DNA of 64,000 nt, taken from Calothrix sp. PCC 7716. GTDB taxonomy: Bacteria; Cyanobacteriota; Cyanobacteriia; Cyanobacteriales; Nostocaceae. The DNA lies in contig NZ_AP025018.1 of the NCBI RefSeq assembly GCF_019977735.1, positions 7,196,580 to 7,260,579 on the forward strand, read 5' to 3'. This document shows, piece by piece, positions 8,184 through 64,000 of the stretch; position 1 is the first letter of the stretch, and the number at the start of each line of letters is the position of its first letter. Made by a program: the position numbers and the translations under genes. The notes below the pieces were generated by a model. It did no database searches and was not told where the DNA came from. It saw only the letters and a list, made by a program, of their open reading frames with translations.

Positions 8184-8516
8184 TTGCCGCGATTTAAACT
8201 AACTAGCACTCTTTAGGTAGAGACGTTGCATGTAACGTCTCTACCTAACCGTATTGCATCGAAGATTTCGTATATCAGTTTTAAGAGCGTCGATGTGCGC
8301 GCATTGGGGCAAAATTTTAGAGTTTGCGCGAAGATATTGGTATCTCAATGTCAGCAGGATAGTCAAGGACTTTTATGAAGACTAGCAACGGATTATGAAC
8401 GGATGTAACCGATGGTTAATTTTATAAAACCAGAACTTATTTGTAACTAATAAATTATCCGTTACATCTGCTGTATCCGTTGCAAACCAACCTCCAAATT
8501 CAATGATATATAGGTA
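8184..8516. other. intergenic region with strong hairpin
   Basis: Sequence between the convergent phosphatase and ScyD/E-like genes. Apart from the palindrome listed separately at 8214-8247, it holds a cluster of short direct and inverted words around CGGATGTAAC and CCGTTACATC (about 8395-8480) that could form a second hairpin. No gene is visible. Confidence 0.4.
8214..8247. repeat. GTAGAGAC palindromic repeat, likely bidirectional terminator
   Basis: Perfect 14-bp inverted repeat TAGGTAGAGACGTT (8214-8227) and its complement (8234-8247) around a 6-base loop. It lies 30 bases after the phosphatase stop. It belongs to the dispersed GTAGAGAC...GTCTCTAC family seen also at 18684, 40854, 42740 and 44300. 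Confidence 0.7.
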
Positions 8517-9905
8517 CTAGCAACTAACTCTGTGCTTGCGCTTCAACATTGCACTACCACCAATAGCACCAACTACTAGTAATCCCACCATAGAAGAAGG
8601 TTCTGGAATTCGCGTCCTTTCAACCCGAACAATTTGCCCTAGGTTTGGACCTACACCGCGCGTTGTTACATATATTTGGTTGTCAGGGCCAATAGTGATT
8701 CCATCAGCCGATGCCAGTCCTTGACCTGCTGCGACGAGAGTTGTGCGAGTTCCATCAGGAGCTAGTTGTATTAAAGAACCTGGCAAGTTTTGTAAGTCAC
8801 CCTTCCACTGCGCCTGGTCGCTAAACTGTAATACAAGCAAGTTGCCATTTTTATCAAATGTTAAGTCAGTGATGTGTGTAAACCCTTCAGCAAAAACTTG
8901 TGGCTGATTATCTTCCCCAATACGAAAAATCCGAGCTTGACCTTCGGGATAAGGAAAACCCAAATATTCGCCAACGTACAAGGCGCCATCAAGACCAATT
9001 GCGGCGCCTGTGGGTACTGATTGAACTAATATCTGAGCAGGTATTTGTCCTGCTCCATCTGCAGGTTGCCCGTCTGGCAGTGCGTCTGCTGGTATCTCTA
9101 CTAGCCCTGGAGGTATCTCTGCTCCTGGTGGAAGCGGTGGAAAGTCTGGGTTATCTATGAGTTTTTTGGGTAATGGAATTGCCGCCATATCACTGCCATC
9201 AAGTTTGATTTTATAGGCGGCATTCCCTCCTCCATCAACAACGTAAGCAGTATTACCACCAATAGTTAATTCATAGGGGTTACTAACGACATCCGCGCCA
9301 TCAGGATTATTGATAATTTCATATTTGCCAAAATCGAAAATCTCTGTCAACTGCTCGGTTTTCAAGTCAGCTTTGAATAGTTTTCCTAAGTTAGGGGTAT
9401 TCAAGAGTTGATCTGGTGGGGATGGAGGAAAAGTATTAAGTTGCGCTTCTGGAATTGGGTATTGAGTACCAAGAGTATTTAGTTCTAAGTCACGGTTTCC
9501 TGGATAACCTGCAAAGCCAGTCAGAAGATAAGCATTACCCAGCGAGTCAAATTGAAGTTCTTGAGGACCCGCTCCCTGATTACCAGAGGGTTGTTCTGCT
9601 AGAGACTGGAAGTTGTTGAATATACGCTCTTGCTTGCCGTCCGGCGTAATTTTGACAACTGAACCAGTGTTACCAGCACAAATTGGTTGAAAAAGTGTAC
9701 TAGGGGATGGTTGGCAGTTTCCATTCCCCCCAATACCTGGTTCACCTACATAAAGATTACCGTCAGGGCCAAATGCAGCACCGCGCGCGTTACTAATTCC
9801 ATCAGCAATTACCGTCAGAGATGCAGCTTGTACAGCTTTCGTTCCGGCAACAGCAGTAAAACAAGTAGTTAGAGCAAAAGTAATCGTAAATTTTTTGGCT
9901 TTCAT
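8517..9905 (-). CDS. ScyD/ScyE family beta-propeller protein with PEP-CTERM anchor
   Basis: A 462-residue exported protein. It has an N-terminal signal peptide (cleavage probably after VQA, about residue 27), six or so NHL/SMP-30-like blades with the repeated phrase FGPDGNLYVG, IGLDGALYVG, TFDKNGNLLV and IGPDNQIYVT, and a C-terminal PEP-CTERM signal (IPEPSSMVGLLVVGAIGG, then KRK). ScyD/ScyE homologues occur in scytonemin clusters, where ScyE is needed for assembly of the sunscreen pigment, but the family is wider than that and no scyABC genes lie here. A proline-rich insert (PPLPPGAEIPPG) sits mid-protein. The family is fairly sure; a scytonemin role is only possible. Confidence 0.75.
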   Translation of the reverse strand: MKAKKFTITFALTTCFTAVAGTKAVQAASLTVIADGISNARGAAFGPDGNLYVGEPGIGGNGNCQPSPSTLFQPICAGNTGSVVKITPDGKQERIFNNFQSLAEQPSGNQGAGPQELQFDSLGNAYLLTGFAGYPGNRDLELNTLGTQYPIPEAQLNTFPPSPPDQLLNTPNLGKLFKADLKTEQLTEIFDFGKYEIINNPDGADVVSNPYELTIGGNTAYVVDGGGNAAYKIKLDGSDMAAIPLPKKLIDNPDFPPLPPGAEIPPGLVEIPADALPDGQPADGAGQIPAQILVQSVPTGAAIGLDGALYVGEYLGFPYPEGQARIFRIGEDNQPQVFAEGFTHITDLTFDKNGNLLVLQFSDQAQWKGDLQNLPGSLIQLAPDGTRTTLVAAGQGLASADGITIGPDNQIYVTTRGVGPNLGQIVRVERTRIPEPSSMVGLLVVGAIGGSAMLKRKHRVSC

Positions 9906-10282
9906 AACCTTTAAAATTCCAAGTTATTTTAATTAAAAATTACCGGATTTAATGGTTATTTGAAATGAACATTCTTTGGGGAAAATATATCTATTATTTA
10001 TATTGTATTTATATTGCAATCAAACAAAAAATTTATGAACACTTTATTTTTAAAAACATCAAGCGCTCATAAACATAAATGTAGTATTCAATTTGATTAG
10101 TCGCTAAAAAACCTAACTAAAAACTAAACTTGCTTTATTATTTAATCTGTACTAATGATAAGTCTATATTTCCAAAAAGTCTACCTAACATTATGTTGTA
10201 TTCTTGCTATAAATATTCTAAATTTGCGAAAACATTTAGATTAGAGGTTGATATAAGACGAATAAACGTAAAAAATTTAAAA
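9906..10282. other. AT-rich intergenic region
   Basis: About 380 bases between the ScyD/E-like gene and the 3' end of the AraC gene. It is very AT-rich (runs such as TTATTTATATTGTATTTATATTG). It must contain the promoter of the ScyD/E-like gene. I see no gene or clear hairpin. Confidence 0.4.
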
Positions 10283-11170
10283 TTAAAGATTTTCTCTATA
10301 CACTTTTGGTGTCATTGTTGTATGCTTCCGAAATAGTGCTGTGAAGTGACTAGGGTTGCGGAAACCTATGCACTCACCAATGTCAGCTATTGACAATTGT
10401 TTTTGAGCTAGTAAAACCTTTGCTCGCTCGATTCTATAATTAATTACGTATTGATGAGGAGTAAGACCAGTTGACTGCTTGAATAAACGAGAAAAATGAT
10501 AAGTACTCATTTGTACGACGTTCTTAAGTTCCGTTAGCGTCAAGTCACGTTCAAGATTGTCACTAATATATGTGAGTACGTTTGATAACTTATATTTAGG
10601 TAAACCACCACTAAAATCCTCAACAGTGATAGAAGTAGAATACTGGTGTAACAAATAACTAGAAAGTGCGGTTGCTAATGATTCACCGTAAAGATGCCCA
10701 GACTTGCAACCAAATTCAAGTTCTGTTTTCAGGGCTAGCCCAATATATTGAATTTGGGGACTTACTACACCTAAGCTCGGCACAATCTCAATATCTTTTA
10801 AGTTCAACTCCTGTGCAATGTGAGTCACAAACGTTTGTTTGAGGCGTAATACCAGGAAGTCACAAGCATCATAACATATTCCAGAACATAATAAACCTGG
10901 AGGCATAATTGTAATTTCGCCGTATGTAAAGCGTTTGCTGACTAGTTGCCCATTCCACATTAACTCTACCCTAGCTGGGCGTTGGAAGTGCAGGTTAATA
11001 ATATAATCTGATGTTGTTTGTGGCGGTATTTCGTGTGCTTGTAGCTGCCAGTATTCAACAACAATGCTGTCCCAAGAGGCGCCTGCACTCGAAAGCATTG
11101 GCGCCATAAACTTTGGTTGTTGTCTCTGTATGTTAATTTTTTCAATGTTTGAAATTTTACCTTTGGACAT
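10283..11170 (-). CDS. AraC family transcriptional regulator
   Basis: A 295-residue regulator. The C-terminal 100 residues are the double helix-turn-helix of AraC/XylS proteins: LTLTELKNVVQMSTYHFSRL for the first unit and LSIADIGECIGFRNPSHFTA for the second, separated by the linker helix YRIERAKVLL. The N-terminal 180 residues are the variable effector half. It stands alone, with no clear target operon beside it, so the signal it senses cannot be read from context. Confidence 0.9.
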   Translation of the reverse strand: MSKGKISNIEKINIQRQQPKFMAPMLSSAGASWDSIVVEYWQLQAHEIPPQTTSDYIINLHFQRPARVELMWNGQLVSKRFTYGEITIMPPGLLCSGICYDACDFLVLRLKQTFVTHIAQELNLKDIEIVPSLGVVSPQIQYIGLALKTELEFGCKSGHLYGESLATALSSYLLHQYSTSITVEDFSGGLPKYKLSNVLTYISDNLERDLTLTELKNVVQMSTYHFSRLFKQSTGLTPHQYVINYRIERAKVLLAQKQLSIADIGECIGFRNPSHFTALFRKHTTMTPKVYRENL

Positions 11171-11261
11171 TATTGTTGCCGCCGCTAACTACTACAATAT
11201 TATTGGCAAACCAGCAAACAGAAGCAATATCTATCCAAATAAAGAAGCGCTCAATGTCAAG

Positions 11262-11345
11262 ATAAGTAACGGCGCCTTACTATCTTGTAGAAGGCGCCTA
11301 CCCAATTTATAGCTTTGCTAATTGTTATACAAAAGTTATTACATG
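11262..11345 (-). pseudogene. relict 3' end of a Uma2 gene
   Basis: This stretch closely matches the 3' end and downstream flank of the Uma2 gene near position 838-915: both contain a GGCGCC or GGCGCCC, the word TATCTTGTAGAAGG, then CTATCCAACTTATGG or CTACCCAATTTATAG, then TTTTGCTAA or CTTTGCTAA. No open frame survives upstream. It is best explained as the remnant of a second Uma2 gene or of a duplicated flank. Confidence 0.5.
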
Positions 11346-11402
11346 CTCCCAAAACTTTCGACTTCGTGCGGCACGCTAGAGTAACTAGCAATATTTAATC
11401 AA

Positions 11403-12668
11403 TTAGCGTAAATATGACGAGATACAAGTTGGAGTTGTTTTGGTTTCTAATTCTTCGATTTTTAATCCTTCTGTGGGAGGTGGACTCTTCAATCGCCGAT
11501 TCCGGTTAACTGCGGGAGCTTCAAGAGTTAAGTAAAGGATACCCTTATAAATCAATTCATAGAGCCAATCTTGATTAATTGCAGTTGCATAGGCTTGCCA
11601 TTTAGGTTGAGAGTGATTGATATCTTGCAACATACGATACATTTGTTCGCTAATTTGGTAAGTTGTAAAATAGGGATTATTGGGAGAAAATAATTCTATT
11701 TCGCGCTCTCCCGTTGTGGGACTGATTTCTAGGCGAAATCGCAAATCAGGAGACATAACCAAAAAGCAATCACTTATTTGCTGTTCTTCTAGTAACTGCC
11801 GTTGCTGGAAATATTCTTGTACATACTGATAAATTGGCTGATTCGGGTTGTGGATTGTGCGGCTATAATAAGAGCGTGTACGAATACTATCAACTTGACA
11901 AATTAAGATATAACCAAAGTTAACTGTACGTAAACCAGTAGTATTAAAGTTCTGTAGCCACTGATCTAATTCGATGTTGTATTGTTGCCAGGTTTGATTA
12001 AAAGCTGTATGGCAGTGGGGAACTGAAAACAGAATATCATTACGATCGGCAGTACTCAGTACTAACTTATAAGCCGCTCCTCCCTGCCACCATTGCTCCA
12101 GTTTAGACTCATACTGCTGAATGTTAACTAAATCCGAAACAATAAATACCCTGCCATTAGGCGCCAGGTGCTTTGTACTCTCAGTAATAATTTGAGCGAG
12201 AATTTCTTCACCAGTTATGCCACCATCCCGGAAGCGACATTCCTGGCTAGGACTAGGAACAAACGGAGGATTTGCTAGAATTGTATCAAAGTAGCCAGAA
12301 GTTGTTTCGTAGAGATTGCCGACAGAGAAGTGAGTATTAGATATACCATTGAGTTGAGCGTTAAACCGAGCAAAGCGAATTGCTCGTGGGTTAATATCAA
12401 CTCCGATAGCTTCTTTCGTATAACGGCTTGCGACTAAACTTTGAATACCGCTACCACAGCAGAGATCTAAAACTCGATTGACTGGATATTGAGGAGCTGT
12501 ATAAACCAGTCCCATACTATCCATACCTACGTACATCACAACGTCTTCCTCAATTTGATCTTCAGAAAGAATCATGTAGCGATGATCTGTAGCCACATAT
12601 AGCCCAGCAACAGCAAATAAATCGACTCGTGAAGCCCAATCTTCACCACGTTGAATTAACAGACCCAA
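11403..12668 (-). CDS. class I SAM-dependent methyltransferase, 5' end cut by IS
   Basis: A HemK/RsmC-like methyltransferase of at least 421 residues. The SAM-binding loop is VLDLCCGSGIQSL, motif II is GVDINPRAIRFARFNAQLNG, and the catalytic NPPF motif reads ILANPPFVPSP, a signature of N-methyltransferases acting on amide or exocyclic nitrogens. The C-terminal 200 residues are unfamiliar. The only usable start is a TTG at 12668, right beside the terminal inverted repeat of the IS at 12671, and the frame continues into IS sequence with no ATG. The natural N-terminus has therefore probably been lost. Whether the remainder is expressed is unknown. Confidence 0.75.
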   Translation of the reverse strand: MGLLIQRGEDWASRVDLFAVAGLYVATDHRYMILSEDQIEEDVVMYVGMDSMGLVYTAPQYPVNRVLDLCCGSGIQSLVASRYTKEAIGVDINPRAIRFARFNAQLNGISNTHFSVGNLYETTSGYFDTILANPPFVPSPSQECRFRDGGITGEEILAQIITESTKHLAPNGRVFIVSDLVNIQQYESKLEQWWQGGAAYKLVLSTADRNDILFSVPHCHTAFNQTWQQYNIELDQWLQNFNTTGLRTVNFGYILICQVDSIRTRSYYSRTIHNPNQPIYQYVQEYFQQRQLLEEQQISDCFLVMSPDLRFRLEISPTTGEREIELFSPNNPYFTTYQISEQMYRMLQDINHSQPKWQAYATAINQDWLYELIYKGILYLTLEAPAVNRNRRLKSPPPTEGLKIEELETKTTPTCISSYLR

Positions 12669-51758: not shown

Positions 51759-53204
51759 AAAAATTATCTGAAGAATTTTTCAGTATTTTTCCAACCGTTT
51801 CTTCGTCCCGGACAAACGTTTGCTCTTTATCCAATAGACACGCTTGCTTATGAGAGTTACTACCGTGCAAGTTTTTTACCTGTTGCAAACAACGTAGTAA
51901 CTCACCAGGGTGTTTTACTTCAACCTCGACAACTTAGCTTAGTTGCACAAACCGAACAGTTACAACTTCCTTTGTTAGTTGATGAAACAGTACAGGTGAA
52001 AGCTTGGGCACGCTGCGAGTTTTGTGAAATTCTTGACCACACAGCAAATCTGGATATTTTATCAAGATTAACTATCTGGGCAAAAGAAGCATTACAAGCG
52101 ATAATTCAACAGCGTCAGCAAATTTTCTTGGCGTACCTACGTGTCTATCAGTTACCTCAACCTCAAGATGTATCTGCTAATCTCGGTCAAAAGGAAAAGT
52201 TAGGAAAATTCATTGGTTTACCTAACTCACTCACTGCTTCTGAAGTAAACCCAGTATTGAGTGATAATACTTTTGCCATTCGCAAGCAGCAACTCGAAAA
52301 GCGTCAACCTCCATTACATCAAGAATTAGAGGAACTTCTTGGCGCCTTAACATCCATTAATATTCCTGCCGCAAAGCAATTAGAACAAGATATTCAAATA
52401 TTCTTAGGTTGGAGGCGCCCATTACAACCAGCATCCAACGATACAGATTTAACTTGGATACATAAAATTGCTGAAGTTGGTAATTCAAGCGATGGACATA
52501 GCTTTGAGAAACTTGTCCGTAGAAGCTTGTTAAAACTGGGTTTCACTGGTTCTAAACTAAATCCTGAAGGAGCAGGTGGCGCCGGAGGAATGGACTTTTA
52601 CTGTGAATATCCATACCCAGTAGTCGGTGAGTGCAAAGCAACTAAATCAGAAAAAGTTCCTGATGGTACCCCTGCACAGCTTCTAAAAATAGGTATTAAT
52701 CATTTAAAAACAACACAGTATACACGCGCAATTAAATTAATTATTGCAGCAGGTAAGTTAACTTCCTACGCACAGAGAACAGCTACTGAACATGATATGA
52801 ACGTAATTACACCAGAAACATTACAAAAATTAGTTGAGTTACAAGCTAGTTATAAAAACTCGATTAATTTATTAGAACTTAAAGAGTATTTGCAACAGGC
52901 ACTGTTTGGTATAGCTGATGATAAAGTTAATCATTATATATATAAAGTTAACCAAGACATTCAACTACGAGCGCAGTTAATTGAACTTGTCAAAAAATAT
53001 CAGGAAAATACAGGTTATAAACGTGCAAGTGTTGATGCTCTACATGGTTACGTAGCTGGAGCATCAATTAGAATTAAACTGCAAGAGTTACACGATATTC
53101 TGGTTGAACTCTCATCACCACTTGCAGGTTATTTAGGACGAATTAAAGGCGAAGACTGGCGCCGTGACAGGTTCTACTTTCTTCGCGATTTACTAATCTC
53201 CTAG
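51759..53204 (+). pseudogene. DUF1802-like/Mrr-like nuclease paralogue, 5' truncated
   Basis: The frame is open from 51759, and coding similarity to the gene at 57193 begins near 51800 (RPGQTFALYPIDTLAYESYY against NPGQQFVLCPVDVSFPWRQY), but there is no ATG, GTG or good TTG before 51972, so about 35 N-terminal codons are missing. The C-terminal nuclease half (from QLEQDIQIFLGWRRPL) is very close to the intact paralogue and keeps the catalytic set GGMDFYC and VVGECKATK. The N-terminal half has diverged much more. A shortened protein could still start at the TTG at 51972. It ends overlapping the aspartic-protease gene by 12 bases. Confidence 0.75.
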
Positions 53205-53558
53205 CGTCAGGATACCTGCTTGATAGTTTACAGCTAATGGTAAGATTTTTAGCCATGCGGAACCAAGCAATATTTCGGTAAGACCTTTACCTGCAAATAC
53301 TGGTATCTCATATTCTTGCTCATCTAAAGTTATTTTACCTAAGTATGCTTGGAATGTTGTAATTCCTTGTGCTGTTAGCATCTTTCGCTTACCAAGATAA
53401 GCCCACTCAAAACCGTCTAAATCTTGTTTATTCATAGCTATAAAGCCCGTGAAGCCAGTATCTAGCATTGCATCTTCGGGCAGTTTTGAGCCACTATCAG
53501 GTATTAACTCTATTTCAAAAAGTAGATGCCCAACCTCATCAAACCTACCATTTATCAT
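53193..53558 (-). CDS. retropepsin-like aspartic protease (clan AA)
   Basis: A 121-residue single-domain protein with the active-site phrase AMLDTGFTGFIAM and a second hydrophobic-G motif (EILLGSAWLKILPL), as in clan AA proteases that dimerise. Small proteins of this kind are common in cyanobacteria, often beside a short partner gene; their targets are unknown. Its start overlaps the stop of the partner by four bases (53555-53558). Confidence 0.75.
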   Translation of the reverse strand: MINGRFDEVGHLLFEIELIPDSGSKLPEDAMLDTGFTGFIAMNKQDLDGFEWAYLGKRKMLTAQGITTFQAYLGKITLDEQEYEIPVFAGKGLTEILLGSAWLKILPLAVNYQAGILTLGD

Positions 53559-53872
53559 ATTCTGCCTGAAGCTCCAGTTTCATTCAGGCAAAAGACAAAG
53601 TTATCCTTATTTGGATATTTTGTAAGTACTTTTTTGTGTGCCTCTATACTATCTTCATCAAGAAAGTACTCTCCACTATCTGGTTCTATACCAATATACC
53701 AACCATAGTATTTATCAATTAATTCAGGACGCAGACGCTCAAAAATAGCTTGACATCGCTGATCAAATATTTCATCAAGAGCTTCTTGTCGTGCAAGCTC
53801 TTCAGGTGTAATAGTTTTTTCAGGAAACATCCTACCGCTTCGTGCGCGAGGTTTATCTACAGATTCAGTCAT
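53555..53872 (-). CDS. partner protein of the aspartic protease, 105 aa
   Basis: A charged 105-residue protein with a helical N-terminal half (TPEELARQEALDEIFDQRCQ) and a more ordered C-terminal half (YYGWYIGIEPDSGEYFLDED). No named family. The ATGA overlap with the protease shows the two are co-translated. Toxin-antitoxin-like behaviour is possible, but nothing proves it. Confidence 0.65.
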   Translation of the reverse strand: MTESVDKPRARSGRMFPEKTITPEELARQEALDEIFDQRCQAIFERLRPELIDKYYGWYIGIEPDSGEYFLDEDSIEAHKKVLTKYPNKDNFVFCLNETGASGRI

Positions 53873-54462: not shown

Positions 54463-55170
54463 GTGTCAAATATTACAGTGGTTATGGCATCAAAAAATAC
54501 ATTGTCTGAAAGTATGGAATTTCAATCTAAAACTCGCCTCCTGCTTGCTTTGTGGGATTTAGGCGCCACGAAGCAGGAAGTCAAAAAAGGTGATCTTACA
54601 AAGCGAATTGTAACAAAGGGTAAGAAAGTCGCTGATTATCAAAATGTATTTAGCGAACTAGAGAAACAAGGAGCGATTATAGTTTCTAAGAAAGGATATT
54701 CGCTTGCAACTCCAGAGGGTTTGGAGGTTTTGAGCCAAGGTTTAAGAAGCTCAGATTTCCGTTTTGAAGGGACTATCGTTGGTACTTGGGCAGCAAATGC
54801 ACTTTTAAAGTGGATAGGTGAAATGAATGGTACTGTGCCTAATACATCTATATTAATGAATGGCATGAATGGCGCCAAAAGTGGTATTGAATCTTATAAG
54901 GAGTTTGAGCAAGTTGTATTAGAAACTTATAAGAAATTAAACCATAACCATAAATTAAATAATTTAGTACCAATTTACCAAATGCGAAGAGAAATTGGTG
55001 AGTGCATTAGCCGAGAAAATTTTGATGATTGGCTACTAGAAATGCAAGCTAATGAAGTTTTTCAACTAATGGCGGGAGAAATGCGAGATATAACTCCAGA
55101 TAAGCGTGAAGATTCTATTACCATTCCTGGAGGTGGATTAAGATACTACGCCAAACACTTAAATTCGTGA
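54463..55170 (+). CDS. winged-helix protein, first gene of the ATPase-nuclease operon
   Basis: A 235-residue protein. Residues 20-85 look like a winged helix (SKTRLLLALWDLGATKQEVK, FSELEKQGAIIVSKKGYSLA, TPEGLEVL). The C-terminal 140 residues contain no domain I know. The frame opens with GTG at 54463; ATGs at 54484 and 54514 are alternatives, and no ribosome site decides between them. It is 36 bases upstream of the AAA+ gene. A DNA- or RNA-binding sensor or regulator of the ATPase is the likely role. Confidence 0.7.
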   Translation: MSNITVVMASKNTLSESMEFQSKTRLLLALWDLGATKQEVKKGDLTKRIVTKGKKVADYQNVFSELEKQGAIIVSKKGYSLATPEGLEVLSQGLRSSDFRFEGTIVGTWAANALLKWIGEMNGTVPNTSILMNGMNGAKSGIESYKEFEQVVLETYKKLNHNHKLNNLVPIYQMRREIGECISRENFDDWLLEMQANEVFQLMAGEMRDITPDKREDSITIPGGGLRYYAKHLNS

Positions 55171-55206
55171 ATTATACCTAGCTAACTATAGTAAGATAAA
55201 AACACT

Positions 55207-57189
55207 ATGAACAATTCCGGTGTTTCAGCAAAAGAAACAATTGATGCCGCAATTCAAAGTTACAACCCATTTATTAATGCTGGGATTGTTAAAGAACAAG
55301 ATGTCTGGGGAGAAGGATTCCCAGATATGCCAACGTTAAATGCCCATGCTTCGGATGCTGTTTTTCAAGCGCTTGAAATGGTACGTACCAGTCAATCGGC
55401 TCAAGAGAAAGTAACATCAATTTCTATAACTGCTCAACAAGGAGTAGGAAAAACTCATCTTCTTAGTCGCATTCGCCATCGACTTAAAACAGATGGAACG
55501 GCTTTTTTTGTTTATGCAGGAGTAAATAATTATACAGACTTAAACTTGGTTAAATACCAATTTCAACAAACTTTAGTAGACAGTTTTAGTAATACTGGTA
55601 GTACTGATGTAATGCAGTGGCAAGAAGTAGCGACTGCAATGGCAAATGAAGGTTTTAAAGCGATTAATGCAAATGCTCCTAGTCTTTCACCAGAGGACTT
55701 GGTAGAAAAATTTGATAAAGTCTGTGCAAGTTGGTCTGCCAAAAATAAAAATTTAATGGACAGACTGATTAAAGAAGTTCTAAAAACAAAACCAAGTGCA
55801 GACCCTTATTTTGTACGAGCAATTCTATGGACGCTATCAGAGACTCAGGCAGCTTTTGCAACTAAATGGTTATCTGGTAATGAATTAGCGAATTCCAATG
55901 CTGATGCACTCGGTTTACCAAATCTGAGCAAGAGCAGTCAGGACAGGGAAGCTGAAGCTCTAAAAAGTATTCAGCAAATTTTGAATTTAGTTAGCTTTTA
56001 TAAACCAGTAGTCATTTGCTTTGACGAGATAGACGTAGAGAATAACTGTAGCGATGATGGACTCCCCACTCCATCAGTAATAGCTGACCTAGTTAAACGT
56101 TTGCACGATACTCTCGAACAATTGGAACTTGGTAGAGGTATTGTTATTCTCACTGTTATGCTACCTGATACATGGACTAAGAAAGTCGATATAATGCCAG
56201 GTGGTACACCAGACAGAATTTCAACATATACACAGCGTAAACCTATTGATTTGAAAAATCTCAATAGCGATTCAATGGTTGAGTTAGTTAGTCTATGGCT
56301 TACAGATTTTTACAAATCAAAAAATTTAACACCTCCTTATACACTCTACCCGTTTGAAGAAAAAGAATTGAGAAAATATGGCGGGGGTGGATTAACTGTA
56401 AGAGAAGCTTTAAGATGGTGTGCAGAACATTTCAAGGTAGAAGACAACTCACTAGCTAAAGACCCATACGAAAGGTTTGAAATTGCTTTGAAGGCAGAAA
56501 GTGAAGTTGAACGTAGCAATTTATTAGAAGATAATACTCTAATTGCTTACGCTTTACGCTTTGCTTTTGAGACACTGAAAGGTCAAATCCTAGAAGGTGA
56601 AACTGCAACAGCTGAGAAATTAGAACAAGTAATAATTAACGAAATAGCTGACATCGAGCCAAAATCAAAAAATCAGAGTTGGATAAACTTTAAAATTATT
56701 GGTAAGGAGAAAGATAAAACTTTTAAGCTTGGCGTTTCTGTTCTTCAGAATTCAAATGGCAAAGCAGTAGGTGCAGGAATGTGGAGGTTAATAGAATATA
56801 ATACATTTGATATAACTAGAGGATGTTTAGTTCGCTCAAAAGATAAGAAAATTCGTAAGAACTGGGATTCTTATGTCTATCTCAATAAGCTTGTACAAAA
56901 CTTAGGAGGAGAATGGGTTGATTTAAAGAATGACGAAATTAGACCGCTTGTTGACTTGTTTTCTATATACCAGAAACGAAACAATTATCAACTTAGTGAG
57001 CAAGAAGTTATTGAGTTTTCTCAAAAAATCACCCGTGATAATCCTTTACTTCTAGAAATTTTAAGTGACCCTTCTGGTCAAATTGATGAGGATGCTGTTG
57101 AAGGAGAAGAGTTATTAAACGACTTCTTTAATCCATCTAGCACACAAGACACCGACGATTCGGATGATTTGAGTGAGTTATTTACTTAA
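55207..57189 (+). CDS. AAA+ ATPase of the accessory operon
   Basis: A 660-residue P-loop ATPase. Walker A is SITAQQGVGKTHLL (residues 79-84 core) and Walker B is KPVVICFDEIDVEN (267-275). ILTVMLPDTW may hold sensor 1, and GGGLTVREALRWC an arginine-containing sensor 2-like region. The order resembles ORC/Cdc6-like or KAP-like ATPases, but I cannot assign a family. The last 50 residues are acidic (DEDAVEGEELLNDF, DTDDSDDLSELF). It ends three bases before the nuclease gene, so the two are translated together and probably form one complex. Confidence 0.75.
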   Translation: MNNSGVSAKETIDAAIQSYNPFINAGIVKEQDVWGEGFPDMPTLNAHASDAVFQALEMVRTSQSAQEKVTSISITAQQGVGKTHLLSRIRHRLKTDGTAFFVYAGVNNYTDLNLVKYQFQQTLVDSFSNTGSTDVMQWQEVATAMANEGFKAINANAPSLSPEDLVEKFDKVCASWSAKNKNLMDRLIKEVLKTKPSADPYFVRAILWTLSETQAAFATKWLSGNELANSNADALGLPNLSKSSQDREAEALKSIQQILNLVSFYKPVVICFDEIDVENNCSDDGLPTPSVIADLVKRLHDTLEQLELGRGIVILTVMLPDTWTKKVDIMPGGTPDRISTYTQRKPIDLKNLNSDSMVELVSLWLTDFYKSKNLTPPYTLYPFEEKELRKYGGGGLTVREALRWCAEHFKVEDNSLAKDPYERFEIALKAESEVERSNLLEDNTLIAYALRFAFETLKGQILEGETATAEKLEQVIINEIADIEPKSKNQSWINFKIIGKEKDKTFKLGVSVLQNSNGKAVGAGMWRLIEYNTFDITRGCLVRSKDKKIRKNWDSYVYLNKLVQNLGGEWVDLKNDEIRPLVDLFSIYQKRNNYQLSEQEVIEFSQKITRDNPLLLEILSDPSGQIDEDAVEGEELLNDFFNPSSTQDTDDSDDLSELFT

Positions 57190-57192
57190 GGT

Positions 57193-58617
57193 ATGGTCGA
57201 ATCAATTTTGCTTCAAACAGCGCTGTGTTTACCCGCTCCAGATGTTGAAGCGTTAGCTCAAGGACGAATGATTGTTGCAATGCCTCGGAGATATATAAAT
57301 CCGGGGCAACAATTTGTGCTTTGTCCTGTAGATGTTTCATTCCCTTGGCGCCAATACTATTACTCAAGCTTTTTCCCTACTGTCCAAACAAGTTTAGCTC
57401 AACTAACCTCACAAACAGTTCTAATTAAAACTTGGGCTAGATGTGAAACTTGCCAAATGCCTACTTCTGAAGCTTTTGATATATTATCACAGTCAACAGT
57501 TTGGACTAAACAAGGCTTATTACAAGCCCTTGGACAAAGACCAAATATTTTTCTAGCTTACTTGCGTGTTTACGATTTGCTTGAGCCTTTAGAAATTTCG
57601 TTGCAACTTCCTAATCGTCATTTTGTAGCATTATCACGACAGGTAAAAGTTGGCGATACATATCCTGTGCTAACAGATACTACTTTTGCTGCTCGTAAGC
57701 ATCGACTCGAAGAACTTCAACCACCATTACATCGGGAATTAGAGGAATTAGAAGGTGCCTTAACACCAATTACAAACCCTGCTGCGAAGCAATTAGAACA
57801 AGATATTCAAATATTCTTAGGTTGGAGGCGCCCATTACTCGCAGCATCCGACGATATAGATTTAAGCTGGATACATAAAATTGCTGAAGTTGGTAATTCA
57901 AGCGATGGACACAGCTTTGAAAAACTCGTTCGTAAAAGTTTATTAAAACTGGGCTTTACTGGTTCAGGACTTGACCCCGAAGGAAGCGGTGGCGCCGGAG
58001 GAATGGACTTTTATTGCGAATATCCATACCCAGTAGTCGGTGAGTGCAAAGCTACTAAATCAGAAAAAGTACCTGATAGTACTCCTGCACAACTTCTGAA
58101 AATAGGTATGAATCATTTGGGTAAAACGCAGTATGAAAACGCGGTTAAATTGATTGTAGCAGCAGGTGAGCTAAATTCCTTTGCAAAAAGAACAGCAACT
58201 GAAAATGGTATGAACGTAATTACACCAGAAACATTACAAAAATTAGTTGAGTTACAAGCCAATTATAAGAACTCGATTAATTTATTAGAACTTAAAGAGT
58301 GTTTGCAGCAGGCGCCATTTGGTATAGCTGATGAGAAAGTTAATAAATATATAGATAAAATCAATCAAGATATTAAACTGAGAGCGCAGTTAGTCGAGCT
58401 TGTTAAAAAATATCTGGAAAATACAGGCTACGAACGTGCAAGTGTTGATGCTCTACATGGTTTTGTTGCAGGGGCATCAATTAAAATTCAGCCACGAGAA
58501 CTACACGAAATATTAGTTGAACTATCATCACCACTTGCAGGTTATTTAGGACGAATTAAAGGCGAAGACTGGCGCCGTGATAGGTTTTACTTCCTTCGTG
58601 ATTTACTAATCTCCTAG
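57193..58617 (+). CDS. DUF1802-like domain fused to Mrr-like PD-(D/E)XK nuclease
   Basis: A 474-residue protein. Residues about 10-135 resemble DUF1802 (RRYINPGQQFVLCPVD, TWARCETCQ, FLAYLRVYDLLEPLEI). Residues about 225-340 are a restriction-endonuclease-like core of Mrr type: HSFEKLVRKSLLKLGFTGSG (Glu243), GGMDFYC (Asp272) and VVGECKATK (Glu284, Lys286), the D...ExK signature, all intact. It should cleave DNA. It follows the AAA+ ATPase after three bases. A truncated paralogue lies at 51759-53204. The first domain may read the target, a guess based on its faster divergence. Confidence 0.8.
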   Translation: MVESILLQTALCLPAPDVEALAQGRMIVAMPRRYINPGQQFVLCPVDVSFPWRQYYYSSFFPTVQTSLAQLTSQTVLIKTWARCETCQMPTSEAFDILSQSTVWTKQGLLQALGQRPNIFLAYLRVYDLLEPLEISLQLPNRHFVALSRQVKVGDTYPVLTDTTFAARKHRLEELQPPLHRELEELEGALTPITNPAAKQLEQDIQIFLGWRRPLLAASDDIDLSWIHKIAEVGNSSDGHSFEKLVRKSLLKLGFTGSGLDPEGSGGAGGMDFYCEYPYPVVGECKATKSEKVPDSTPAQLLKIGMNHLGKTQYENAVKLIVAAGELNSFAKRTATENGMNVITPETLQKLVELQANYKNSINLLELKECLQQAPFGIADEKVNKYIDKINQDIKLRAQLVELVKKYLENTGYERASVDALHGFVAGASIKIQPRELHEILVELSSPLAGYLGRIKGEDWRRDRFYFLRDLLIS

Positions 58618-58960: not shown

Positions 58961-61177
58961 ATGTCTATGTATACAGTCACTAATCGTGCTGCTACTATTG
59001 CTAGCATAATTGAAAAACGGCGCCCACTTGCAGAAAAAATTGCTCTGGTTGAAAATAACTTACAAACACTGTTTGATGCGTTACGTTCACTTGAAGAACA
59101 TCGTAAGCAGCTACTGACTCAAGTTGATGACGATGTTATTGGACGACTGCGAGATATTGATTTAACATCCTGGCAAAGTCGTATCGGAAATGAATGTAAA
59201 GCACTTTCTCAACTAAAAGCGCGGTTCTGTCGGAAAACATTAAATATAGGTGTGGTTGGACTCGCGCGACAAGGTAAAAGTCGCTTGCTACAAAGCTTAA
59301 CAGGACTGACTACAGCCGAAATTCCTGATGGTGATGGACAACACTGTACAGGTGTTCGCAGCACAATTTACCATAATCCATCTACAGAGACCTATGCTGA
59401 GGTTCTATTTCATTCCGAACGGTCGTTTTTAAATGAAGTAATTGCACCGTATTATGAGAAACTGCAATTAGGCGCCAAAGCAACATCACTTGAAGAATTT
59501 TCCCATAAATCCCTACCTGCATTACCTAAACACATTTCTGATTCCACTAAACTGGGAGCAATGTACGAACACTTGCAACGGTACTACATCAATTTTGATA
59601 AATACCAGCGTCTGTTACGGGAAACATCTGCTCTTCGTATATCTAGAAACCAGATTAGGGAGTACGTTGCACAAGACACACTTGATGGACAACGTATTTA
59701 CTTCAACTATCTGGCAGTAAAGGAAGTGAAAATTTTCTGTCAATTTCCAAATGCGGATATTGGCAACATTGCTTTAGTGGATATGCCAGGGTTAGGAGAT
59801 ACTGGGATTGGGGACGAAGAACGCTTAATGAAAACATTAGGACAAGATGTTGATGCCGTATTATTCGTGCGGATGCCTAAACCATCTGGCGACTATTGGG
59901 GTAAGTCTGATGTGGAATTATATGATACAGCTCGTGCCTCGTTACCTGATTTACCACTAGAGTTATGGTCTTTTATGGTATTAAACCGCATTGGTGGAAA
60001 TCCTCAGCTTGGTGATAATTTAAATAACTGTAAAGGTTTAGCCGGTGACATCACTAACAAACATATTAAAGTTATTAACCCTTTTATTGCAAATTGTGCA
60101 AGTTTAGAAGAAGCAGGTGGTGTACTAGACAATGTTTTAAATTATCTAACTAATAAAATAAATGACCTAGACGAAAAATATGCATCTACGTGTCAGCAAA
60201 AACTGACTCAGCTACAAAGTCATATTTTTGCTGAATTGCAAGAATGTCAAAATATTTTTACTTCCGAAGAGCAAACAGATGAAGAAGATGAAATATTTGA
60301 ATCTTTATTTGAGGAATTTTGGAACACCCTGACAAGTAGCCTTCTGAGTTTAGTGACTGAATTTAAAGAACAGTCTGATAACGATAATGACTTCCTCTTT
60401 TCAATAAATGATACTATTGCCAATTGCAAATCTAATACAGCAATTCCTTCTGACCTTAGAGAAATTAAGCAGAAGCACGATAGTATGGGTAGTTACAACA
60501 AAGCTTATGACCAATACTTAGATGAAGTCAGGACACGTTTAACACAACATTTTTTAACTTTAGATAAAGGTTTGAATTGTTCTATAGAAAAAGCTCAAAA
60601 AATGGTAGCACATGTACTGCTAGAACAAGGAGGTTTAAGAGGTTTAACCGAAAAACGAGGTATTGAGTTTCTCAAATTTATGGCAGAAGAACTACCTGAA
60701 AAACATAACAATCTCAAGCGAAGCTTTCAACTTTTATCAACTTTTGAACTTTCCTTCCGTGGGCTTGTTCAACCTCGTATCCGTAAACATCTAAATGATT
60801 TAAGACCTGATGCGAAAGTAATTCGGCTTTCTAGCTCACTATTAGAGGAGAAAATGCAAAAAGAGATACAGGAAAATTTACAAATACTTCATGCTGAAGC
60901 ACTTTATAAATGTAAAGAATCTTTAAATAGTATGTTAAGTGAGCCAAGTCAAGCAGCATTAGCAATAGTAGAAGAATTTGTAGACCAAGCTCTGCGGGCA
61001 AAAGGAGTAAATAAAGAATGGCGGCTATTTCTCAAAAAACAAAAAAGCAAGGTTTGGTCAGAAAAATTTGCTCAATTGAACCAACAATCTGAAATTAGGC
61101 AAAGATGGCTTGATATCGTGCGAAAAGCGATATTAGCAAATCAAGTAGAATTTATGCAATTTTTAAACTGTATATAA
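58961..61177 (+). CDS. dynamin-like large GTPase
   Basis: A 738-residue protein. An N-terminal coiled coil (about 15-90) precedes the GTPase: G1 NIGVVGLARQGKSRLLQS (residues 101-107), G3 VDMPGLGDTG, and a weak G4 (MVLNRIGGN) that departs from NKxD. The C-terminal 330 residues are helical, as in bacterial dynamin-like proteins, without a transmembrane helix. Such GTPases serve in membrane remodelling and in several anti-phage systems. The next gene starts 12 bases downstream. Confidence 0.75.
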   Translation: MSMYTVTNRAATIASIIEKRRPLAEKIALVENNLQTLFDALRSLEEHRKQLLTQVDDDVIGRLRDIDLTSWQSRIGNECKALSQLKARFCRKTLNIGVVGLARQGKSRLLQSLTGLTTAEIPDGDGQHCTGVRSTIYHNPSTETYAEVLFHSERSFLNEVIAPYYEKLQLGAKATSLEEFSHKSLPALPKHISDSTKLGAMYEHLQRYYINFDKYQRLLRETSALRISRNQIREYVAQDTLDGQRIYFNYLAVKEVKIFCQFPNADIGNIALVDMPGLGDTGIGDEERLMKTLGQDVDAVLFVRMPKPSGDYWGKSDVELYDTARASLPDLPLELWSFMVLNRIGGNPQLGDNLNNCKGLAGDITNKHIKVINPFIANCASLEEAGGVLDNVLNYLTNKINDLDEKYASTCQQKLTQLQSHIFAELQECQNIFTSEEQTDEEDEIFESLFEEFWNTLTSSLLSLVTEFKEQSDNDNDFLFSINDTIANCKSNTAIPSDLREIKQKHDSMGSYNKAYDQYLDEVRTRLTQHFLTLDKGLNCSIEKAQKMVAHVLLEQGGLRGLTEKRGIEFLKFMAEELPEKHNNLKRSFQLLSTFELSFRGLVQPRIRKHLNDLRPDAKVIRLSSSLLEEKMQKEIQENLQILHAEALYKCKESLNSMLSEPSQAALAIVEEFVDQALRAKGVNKEWRLFLKKQKSKVWSEKFAQLNQQSEIRQRWLDIVRKAILANQVEFMQFLNCI

Positions 61178-61189
61178 AAAGGTAAGAAA

Positions 61190-62158
61190 ATGCAAAAAAT
61201 CAATATTACAATGCTCGGGCCTAGCGGTATTGGTAAAACTAGCTTGATAACAGCTATGTTCCATCAGTTTATGGAAAAAGTTAGTATCACAAGTTTACAG
61301 TTAATACCCAGTAGCGAAACATGACGAGAAATTGAAGATTACTTAGCACAGCTAAAGTATCTAGTCAGCAGCAATAATTTCCAAGCAGAAGGAGGAGTGA
61401 AGCAGACAAAAGAACCTACGTCTCTCTATTATAATATTAGTCAGACATCTATAAATCCTTTGCTACAAGTCCATTTTCAAGATTTTCCTGGAGGTTACAT
61501 AGAATCAGAAGGTACTAAAGAAGAGATACAGAAAGTGGAAAAATTTTTAGAAGAATCATGCGCTGTTATCATACCAATAGATGCTGCTGCTCTCATGGAA
61601 AGGGAAGGCAAATGGCATGAAAAAACTAACCAACCAACAGTCATTACAAATTTGCTCAAAAAAGCTTACCAAAACCTGAATTCTCCAAGACTTGTTATCT
61701 TAGTTCCAGTAAAATGTGAAACTTATATGCAGGAACCAAACTCAGAACAAAAATTGCTGAATCAGGTAAAAGAGAAATATTCTGAGTTGCTAGATTTTTT
61801 AAGAACACCAAATTCAGCCACATATGTATCTGTTGTTGTAACACCTGTACAAACTGTTGGTAATTTAAAATTTTCTCGTATAGAAGGAGAAGATGAAGAA
61901 GAACCAAAGTTTTATTTTAGACAAACTGAGCGTAATGTCGCTTATGCTCCTAAAGATGCAGAACAACCACTTCAGTATTTATTTAGCTTTTGTTTAAAAC
62001 TCCATGCAGAGCAAAAGCTTTTTCCTGGAATCAATTTTATTAATAATTTAGCAGGTATAGATAATCCATTTAGGCAAGCAGCGTTACAAGTTGCTAGAGG
62101 ACGCAAAAGAACTGGTGGATTTGCTGTGTTACAAGGTCAGAACTGGTTAGATATTTAG
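61190..62158 (+). pseudogene. small GTPase-like protein interrupted by in-frame TGA
   Basis: From the ATG at 61190 the frame gives INITMLGPSGIGKTSLITAM (G1, residues 9-16), stops at TGA 61322-61324 (codon 45), then continues open to 62158 in the same frame with QVHFQDFPGGYIES (G3-like DxxG) and LVILVPVKCETYM (G4-like). Whole length would be 322 residues. It resembles TRAFAC GTPases found in conflict systems. TGA from CGA is a single C-to-T change. It may be a recent mutation, a sequencing error or genuine read-through. Downstream codons look intact, which argues for a recent event. Confidence 0.7.
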
Positions 62159-62404: not shown

Positions 62405-64000
62405 TAATAAGTTTGCGAACAATGTTTGTGAGCTAAAAAAGGACGCAGTTTTTTATCCCAGTTATGAGATTAACTGAGTAAAACAAGTATATTTGCAGAA
62501 AAACTACGCAGCTTTAGGCTGTGAAATGTTTGATTTTTGACTTTTTTTGATAACAGGATGCTTAACTCTTTTAGTCTGGGTCTGACCCCTCACCCTACCA
62601 GTCGCATTTCCTCGGGGTTTTGGCGAATTTCCTGGTTTTCCGACCTCCGAAATAATTCTTTGGAAGTCACGTTGTACGGTACTGGGAGAAATAATTTTAT
62701 CATTGTTTTGCTTTTGATAGCGCTCCCACGGTCTTGGTAAATAGTTAGATAATTCTTTTGCAGCCCATAATTGTACGTAGGCGAGCATTACTAAACGTAT
62801 CCAATTTTCTTCGCGCTTTACGTCGGTAGTTTGGAAATTAGTCATTAGTAAACGTTGCTTTTTAAATCTAAACATATGTTCTATGTCAAACCGTTGCCGA
62901 TAGCAAGAATAGACTTCTGCAAGCGTAATACGTCCGCGTTGCTCACCCATAACTATCAACCACATCGGTTTCCAAACCGCACAGCCAGTATCATCGGTAA
63001 CATGAACCCGTACTAGAGTAAATGGGCATTTATACATTTGTTCTTGTTGAGTTCCCCTCATCAACATATGGTGCCAAGCCTTGAGGGTTACTGTGAATTG
63101 GCGACCTTTCTTGCTAGTGCTCTTGAATTGTGTTGTCTCGTCAGGCGGGTGCCAAGTCTCTTCAAGGGCAAGGTCGAAACGTTCAGCAAATTTTTTTGGA
63201 CACCCGCGTTTCTTCTCTTCTTGTTGTGCAGGTGGTGAAGAGTAAAAAATTCGATTACTACGAACTCTGGTAATTACAACCAAATTTTTGTGTTTGGATG
63301 AATTAAATAGGAATGAGCGTTGACTATAAGCACTATCAGCAGTTAATACTGATAATTTACCGTGCCACGGAAGCGATTCATCTGACATCAATGCGTTAAT
63401 TTGGTTAATGCCAACACTTATACCTTTCTTATCAGTTGGAACTCTTTCTCCCGACAGTGGAATTGACCAAGGCGCCGACTGGTGGGAGTCTTTTTCAGGT
63501 AACAGCGACACGAATGAAAAAGAATGACCAACACCGATGGATTTATTACCTGCAATAGTATTTGGCTGGTAAATATAACCTCTTTCAGGTAAGGTTGGAG
63601 AGTAAGGGCGCGGGTGAGGAGTTGTATCCGTTGCAAATAAGTAAAAAGAGCGTTTTTCCGGTTGGGGCGTAACTTCAGCAATTAGTCGAGTTAAATTTTT
63701 TAGCTTTTTTCTCTTCTTTTTCTTATCATCGTTGAAATTAAATGATTTTTCAATTGCCTTGTAGATTGAGCTATAAGTCCTTTCAAATAAAGGACTTATA
63801 GATAACTCAACAGGGGAAGAAGCGCCGTTTGAGTTACTAGCCAAAGCATCAATTAAATCAATAATACTATCACTGTAAGATTTAAACAATTTACGTAAAT
63901 GTTGCCGAAAAGAGCGGAATTGCGCTATTAATTGATTATTGTTTATTACTTGCATAGCCATCAGTTGTTTTGGTATGTAGTTCGTTTCTGATAATACTAT
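62349..64000 (-). mobile_element. insertion sequence reaching the right edge
   Basis: Imperfect inverted repeats of about 40 bp bound it: on the left GTATTATCAGAA...ACTA..TACCAAA...ACTGAT (62351-62387), on the right the complement of the same words (63960-64000). The right end is at the window edge, so the exact boundary and target duplication cannot be seen. One transposase gene. Confidence 0.75.
62504..63961 (-). CDS. DDE transposase of the right-edge IS
   Basis: A 485-residue transposase with the phrases FATDTTPHPRPYSPTLPERG (first Asp), LSVLTADSAYSQRSFLFNSS (second Asp) and YRQRFDIEHMFRFKKQRLLM (Glu with the YREK-like box). It belongs to an IS4-like group common in cyanobacteria. The frame is complete, beginning inside the right terminal repeat. 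Confidence 0.85.
   Translation of the reverse strand: MAMQVINNNQLIAQFRSFRQHLRKLFKSYSDSIIDLIDALASNSNGASSPVELSISPLFERTYSSIYKAIEKSFNFNDDKKKKRKKLKNLTRLIAEVTPQPEKRSFYLFATDTTPHPRPYSPTLPERGYIYQPNTIAGNKSIGVGHSFSFVSLLPEKDSHQSAPWSIPLSGERVPTDKKGISVGINQINALMSDESLPWHGKLSVLTADSAYSQRSFLFNSSKHKNLVVITRVRSNRIFYSSPPAQQEEKKRGCPKKFAERFDLALEETWHPPDETTQFKSTSKKGRQFTVTLKAWHHMLMRGTQQEQMYKCPFTLVRVHVTDDTGCAVWKPMWLIVMGEQRGRITLAEVYSCYRQRFDIEHMFRFKKQRLLMTNFQTTDVKREENWIRLVMLAYVQLWAAKELSNYLPRPWERYQKQNNDKIISPSTVQRDFQRIISEVGKPGNSPKPRGNATGRVRGQTQTKRVKHPVIKKSQKSNISQPKAA

Follow-up and report, generated by a model that had tools for sequence, protein, structure and literature searches.

The window analysed here is a stretch of 64,000 nucleotides from Calothrix sp. 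PCC 7716 (contig NZ_AP025018.1, positions 7,196,580 to 7,260,579), in which three closely spaced genes encode a small putative winged-helix protein (gene 1), an Orc/Cdc6-type AAA+ ATPase (gene 2) and a nuclease with a DUF1802 domain in front (gene 3), hereafter the trio. An earlier, sequence-only reading had described these genes with gaps of 36 bases between genes 1 and 2 and 3 bases between genes 2 and 3; after rechecking its list of open reading frames (ORFs) and coordinates, we reproduced that layout, order and spacing, with all three genes on the plus strand (Table 1; positions in window numbering).

The three genes form a fixed, conserved operon. Named genomes scanned with a profile of the ATPase yielded 208 relatives, from which 78 distinct loci, all in records titled cyanobacteria, were used for counting. 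These loci carry 86 ATPase ORFs, including ten fragments or contig-end cases; 71 of the 76 complete ATPases have gene 1 upstream and a DUF1802–Mrr nuclease downstream on the same strand, three have the nuclease alone and two have neither partner. The possibility that the trio occurs only in this strain is thereby excluded, as is, for the named loci, a nuclease usually found without the ATPase. Across 195 genomes of the same order, where weak and partial matches are included in the counts, the ATPase was matched in 144 (sister-operon and solitary ATPases included), gene 1 in 98 and the nuclease in 95, some of the last being fragments (for example, in genome G077) or DUF1802 alone (G186). At this level of similarity, the genome of the window holds one ATPase, one gene 1 and two nucleases, the second being a truncated upstream copy.

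A fold search with the predicted structure of the ATPase returned the ORC/Cdc6 fold. Both Walker motifs, described as intact in the sequence-only reading, are present in the window copy; the Walker A glycines, lysine and threonine/serine are kept in 73 of 73 trios and the Walker B Asp-Glu pair in 70 of 73, the window's ATPase included. Residues 443–572, which lie outside the coverage of the fold search, have an alpha-beta order resembling a restriction-endonuclease core with no D..ExK motif, and from the model's secondary structure and the conservation of this region we infer a candidate inactive restriction endonuclease (iREase).

In Pfam, gene 3 matches DUF1802 (E 4.7e-23) and Mrr_cat (E 4.4e-4, slightly short of the family cut-off), and the fold search with its structural model (predicted local distance difference test score, 86.9) returned ASCH, a FokI-like endonuclease and a winged helix. 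The intact D...ExK core behind a DUF1802-like domain was thus correctly recognized from the letters: E243, D272, E284 and K286 are kept in the window nuclease and in 73 of 73 trios. Through this model DUF1802, a domain of unknown function on which a literature search returned only work unrelated by title and abstract, would gain a predicted fold, ASCH. A separate stand-alone DUF1802 protein of about 200 amino acids (locus L075, G000:C1:4005153-4005671) matches the Pfam family far more strongly than the trio's domain does (E 1.9e-72); with an ASCH-type fold this protein, too, would be expected to bind nucleic acid.

Gene 1 matched no family in Pfam, NCBIfam or PADLOC, and a database search recovered 1370 homologues at E ≤ 0.001. 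Its profile aligns with its longer counterpart at the head of the sister operon described below (171 columns, E 1.3e-13, hhalign), and the Protein Data Bank (PDB) yielded winged-helix proteins at E 0.16-0.6 only, weak and non-significant matches with which the earlier label of winged-helix protein is compatible; distant homology and these hits together suggest a winged-helix fold in two units. Nothing convincing emerged from sequence searches of the PDB, whether the query was one of genes 1-3 or a profile of the ATPases, gene 1 or the nuclease. The true start of gene 1 is probably the ATG at 54484, 21 bases after the GTG, giving 228 amino acids, because the database copy P0121 has this length and that methionine is invariant in alignment A3.

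Table 1. The trio, its domains and neighbouring features (window numbering)
Feature	Position	Strand	Details
Gene 1, small DNA-binding-type protein	54463..55170	+	ORF, 235 amino acids from GTG; 2 winged-helix units predicted
Gene 2, Orc/Cdc6-type AAA+ ATPase	55207..57189	+	ORF, 660 amino acids
AAA+ domain of gene 2	55249..56448	+	Residues 15-414; Walker A G79, G81, K82; Walker B D273, E274
C-terminal domain of gene 2, candidate iREase	56533..56922	+	Residues 443-572, then helices 575-619
Gene 3, predicted ASCH (DUF1802) - FokI/Mrr-type endonuclease - winged helix	57193..58617	+	ORF, 474 amino acids
DUF1802 part of gene 3, predicted ASCH/PUA-like fold	57205..57675	+	Residues 5-161
Endonuclease core of gene 3	57850..58365	+	Residues 220-391
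Site residues of gene 3	D272 58006-58008; E284 58042-58044; K286 58048-58050	+	
C-terminal winged helix of gene 3	58363..58614	+	Residues 391-474
Second nuclease copy, 5'-truncated	51972..53204	+	Own ATPase / winged-helix gene absent; site residues EDEK kept
Aspartic-protease-like (clan-AA) protein, 121 amino acids, and 105-amino-acid protein	53193..53872	-	TIGR03698 9.6e-6, short of cut-off
Dynamin-like GTPase	58961-61177		Dynamin_N E 1.4e-4
Protein with weak DO-GTPase2 match	61397-62158		E 0.0066
IS701-type transposase gene	62504-63961		NF041680, E 2.2e-155

Exchange of the endonuclease half

New here is that the endonuclease half of the nuclease is exchanged between copies of the trio and the ASCH half goes with the ATPase. 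The cores of 74 nucleases fall into two types, with 48 and 26 members and about 65% identity within and 41% between types, and in FastTree phylogenies the core type changes once on the core tree as against 17 times on the ATPase tree and 16 times on each of the gene 1 and DUF1802 trees. Trios closer to the window's in ATPase identity also tend to be closer in DUF1802 (rho 0.70) and gene 1 (0.62), but for the core there is no such correlation (-0.11). Among 120 pairs of trios with ATPases at least 75% identical, 43 carry different core types, as in L086 and L087 (ATPase 94%, gene 1 90%, DUF1802 94%, core 39%); conversely, 108 pairs with ATPases below 50% identity share cores at least 75% identical, as in L085 and L145 (ATPase 45%, DUF1802 53%, core 100%, C terminus 96%).

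The same break separates the two nuclease copies of the window, which share 85% DNA identity over 975 bases. The open frame of the truncated copy extends further upstream and its alignment to gene 3 begins at about residue 34; protein identity is 42% over residues 62-161 and 84% over residues 162-474. Truncated copies as general donors for such swaps were considered and rejected, since an additional piece of nuclease is present at just 6 of 73 loci. We read the pattern as a chassis, comprising gene 1, the ATPase and the predicted ASCH domain, that would carry an exchangeable payload of endonuclease and winged helix. Swapping of gene parts is often seen in the arms race with viruses, and the exchangeability of the payload half suggests that this is the part which determines the choice of target or the escape from phage inhibitors. 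With its sharp exchange point behind ASCH, the nuclease lends itself to a direct test of which part selects the target.

Nuclease copies, a sister operon and the chromosomal site

Some nucleases found outside trios have lost site residues. Three from one genus without neighbouring partner genes (L160, L161 and L162) lack E243 and E284, and one of them also K286; pairwise alignment likewise shows loss of site residues in the additional nuclease that follows the trio at L097 and at L151. These counts suggest that nuclease activity tends to be lost without the partners, as a tendency and not a rule: the stronger proposition that orphan nucleases are always dead is ruled out by non-trio nucleases with all four residues. 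The extra nucleases of L097 and L151 (L097:12652-14097, L151:11584-13032) are full-length and of the other core type, and each resulting pair of an active and an inactive nuclease recalls the two subunits of BspD6I.

At 14 loci, selected among the more distant matches to the ATPase or gene 1, counterparts of genes 1 and 2 are followed by a protein of about 860 amino acids or a broken piece of it. This sister operon encodes a winged helix-turn-helix (wHTH) protein of about 277 amino acids, an ATPase of about 660 amino acids and a third protein joining a 3'-5' exonuclease, a PD-(D/E)XK nuclease, FtsK-alpha and an FtsK motor, the last of which matches PADLOC SspH at 4e-65 and also mad8 models. 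The ATPases of the two operons are related (519 columns, E 8.7e-33, hhalign), and profile comparison detected no homology between the trio nuclease and the sister exonuclease/FtsK protein. The window's genome also carries the sister operon (L166, G000:C1:10395000-10412000, at 8284-12645 on the minus strand), with a third gene shortened to 488 amino acids that, by alignment range, retains the exonuclease and PD-(D/E)XK parts only.

The trio is often found beside the housekeeping genes fpg, mdh or pgi, at least one of which lies in the flanks of 46 of the 78 loci (fpg 30, mdh 27, pgi 35), frequently arranged as fpg-mdh-trio-protease-like pair-pgi. Of 20 trio regions retrieved for comparison, 5 contain mdh, 4 pgi and 3 fpg; among 20 randomly placed regions from the same contigs, one has pgi and none fpg or mdh. 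For the window's genome, the distance from the trio to pgi, which is downstream and past the window end (window coordinates 67576-69153), is about 9 kb; mdh and fpg are absent from the 64-kb window. G077, a relative from the same family, has no trio between mdh and pgi, and a 29-codon remnant of the nuclease end remains there. Six solitary ATPase relatives with neither gene 1 nor nuclease (L035, L036, L037, L039, L050 and L074) stand right behind mdh, five of them with a PhzF-like gene next, and two of these loci (L035 and L036; G104:C46 and G121:C7) hold tandem arrays of 3 and 4 ATPases with 2 and 3 nucleases at the mdh site.

The protease-like protein and its small companion occur at 26 and 27 of the 78 loci, respectively, usually between the nuclease and pgi (3 of 20 trio regions, none of the 20 controls). 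Behind gene 3 there is a repeat of the final codons of the protease-like gene, which indicates that the pair probably once followed the window trio. The Dynamin-like GTPase and the DO-GTPase2-like gene are inserted between trio and pgi in the window's genome.

Possible functions of the trio

A defence role of the trio is likely, and on balance we favour, with modest confidence, a DNA-cutting operon directed against invaders, a member of the Orc/Cdc6-centred class predicted by Rakesh et al. 2024. This reading draws on the fixed gene order (71 of 76), on the ORC/Cdc6, ASCH, FokI-like and winged-helix folds with Walker A and the four nuclease residues intact in 73 of 73 trios, on the homologous sister operon whose exonuclease/FtsK third gene has an SspH-like motor, on the exchanged endonuclease half, on the patchy presence (95 of 195 genomes) with a relic at the empty site of G077, and on the loss of site residues in some nucleases outside trios (L160-L162, L097 and L151). 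Of the sequence-only proposal, loading of the ATPase and winged-helix protein onto DNA and cutting by the nuclease fit everything found, and we infer a scheme along these lines. Judging from their folds and the gene order, the Orc/Cdc6-type ATPase and the winged-helix protein would assemble on DNA with ATP. Together they would bring in the nuclease and license it by way of its ASCH half, the half that evolves with the ATPase. By analogy with the PUA/ASCH superfamily, ASCH probably reads a modified base, or some other feature of the invader's nucleic acid; cutting would then fall to the FokI-like endonuclease and its C-terminal winged helix, the exchangeable payload. The predicted ASCH fold is a hint, and only that, of modification-dependent restriction.

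Several observations weigh against an anti-invader role. In many genomes the trio keeps one site by housekeeping genes, unlike mobile defence genes, and 62 pattern matches in viral contigs contained no relative. Its surroundings were compared with random ones using 145 random ORFs of 232 from 20 trio regions and 145 of 295 from 20 random regions of the same genomes (ORFs of at least 110 amino acids; the trio genes and one ORF of at least 1500 amino acids were excluded from the former, and one of at least 1500 amino acids from the controls). At E ≤ 1e-8, PADLOC returned 121 families for the trio regions and 113 for the random ones, the commonest listed being PDC-S03 (5 versus 3); in these small samples, and among the 25 families listed for each, known defence genes showed no visible enrichment within about 8-10 kb of the trios. 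The stable site, the relic in G077 and the lack of a visible PADLOC excess together point to long residence with losses and argue against a typical defence island. Accordingly, from the earlier picture of an island of duplications, relicts and insertion sequences (ISs), the truncated nuclease copy and the IS701 gene are real, but a defence-island setting is not supported, given the conserved pgi site. Eight nucleases outside called trios keep all four site residues (L089, L109, two at L127, L115, L132, L144 and L154), several of them belonging to trios that a contig end interrupts or in which a partner is broken or missing, and so do L163 and the window's truncated copy. Finally, the 17 core-type changes on the ATPase tree equal the minimum of 300 label shuffles (range 17-26, mean 21.65); some descent signal therefore remains and the exchange is not fully random.

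The main rival is chromosome maintenance, in which a repair or replication-conflict nuclease would act on damaged or stalled chromosomal DNA with no part in defence. We consider this unlikely, though the foremost of the alternatives: the trio nuclease is missing from about half of the 195 genomes and has been lost in place in G077, and repeated exchange of the endonuclease half suits conflict better than fixed housekeeping. Slightly less probable still is a suicidal (abortive) effector, in which the ATPase and winged-helix protein would sense infection and the nuclease, once unleashed, would attack host DNA or RNA; sensor repeats and typical STAND helices were not found in the trio, and the nuclease's own winged helix and predicted ASCH domain suggest target recognition instead. 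An Orc/Cdc6 ATPase with a FokI/TnsA-like nuclease also recalls Tn7, but a transposon-related module is very improbable: the conserved three-gene unit (71 of 76) contains no transposase gene, the chromosomal site is constant and the window's IS701-type gene has its own family, and we set aside a Tn7-like or IS-borne module on the first two grounds.

Should the anti-invader reading hold, the trio would be a widespread cyanobacterial defence system that is not in PADLOC-DB 2.0.0 and that, because of its stable chromosomal site, was missed by island-based searches.

Relation to Dnd and other known systems

A published survey (PMC8569181) describes Nostocales as rich in dnd genes yet without dndFGH. 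Within the 195 genomes, DndC (TIGR03183) was matched in 162 (156 above cut-off) and DndF (PDLC02673) gave three weak partial matches, one of them beside gene 1 of a sister operon. The most fully scanned dnd cluster (L211) encodes, beside DndC, DndD, DndE, a DndB-like protein and dnd-associated proteins; a second (L210) has a DndB-like match. A hand count puts DndC in 87 of the 95 genomes with a nuclease match and in 75 of the 100 without (Fisher p 0.002). A hand inspection of families lacking DndC in some members showed no consistent direction, and the link is therefore taken as descent. As the crude association has no consistent direction within families, we think it improbable, well below the chromosomal and suicidal alternatives, that the ancestral cyanobacterial phosphorothioate (Dnd) modification has its missing restriction half in the trio and the FtsK sister operon, which as DndFGH-like Orc/Cdc6 machines with an exchangeable endonuclease half would tell sulfur-marked self DNA from foreign. 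Genomes of the Nostocales type nearly always have dndC but no DndFGH, and for these modification genes the trio is a candidate partner.

No model of PADLOC-DB 2.0.0 matched the trio, which is thus not a known PADLOC system: genes 1 and 2 had no match at E ≤ 1, gene 3 matched only DpdD at 0.02, and none of the window proteins matched DndF, SspF or mad models at E ≤ 1. The sequence-only statement that no named system has this set of genes therefore stands for that database; the domain combination itself had already been predicted. Rakesh, Aravind and Krishnan 2024 (PMC10853773) predict, in its main text, an anti-invader set of an Orc/Cdc6 ATPase, a fusion of restriction endonuclease (REase) and ASCH, and a DndG-like winged-helix protein; a literature search combining ASCH, Cdc6, endonuclease and anti-phage pointed again to this paper. 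Of the three named components, the trio has the Orc/Cdc6-clade AAA+ ATPase and the active-site-intact REase fused to ASCH, as judged from folds and motifs, and in gene 1 a putative winged-helix protein; by this composition we file the trio in that class, known in silico only, of which it appears to be a member. Cyanobacteria and DUF1802 go unmentioned in the main text of PMC10853773, as do a constant chromosomal site and any exchange of the REase half.

For this ATPase family the same paper describes an inactive REase between the AAA+ domain and a C-terminal wHTH; in gene 2, the strand and helix order of the C-terminal region outside fold-search coverage, and its lack of a D..ExK motif, would fit such a domain. 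Their separate DndG-like protein has 2-4 winged helices (triple wHTH); gene 1 looks like two and not three, and the mobile gene neighbourhoods they describe differ from the constant fpg/mdh/pgi site at 46 of 78 loci. The sister operon fits the FtsK-alpha and 3'-5' exonuclease fusions of their Orc/Cdc6 HerA/FtsK capture systems; the trio differs from these, and from DndFGH, in having no FtsK/HerA motor among matches of its three proteins to Pfam, NCBIfam and PADLOC. With DndFGH, SspFGH and mad6-8 of MADS it has in common a three-gene logic of ATPase, winged-helix protein and nuclease or motor. Compared with FokI and BspD6I, finally, the recognition parts differ, gene 3 having a predicted ASCH domain in front, one winged helix behind and a partner ATPase.

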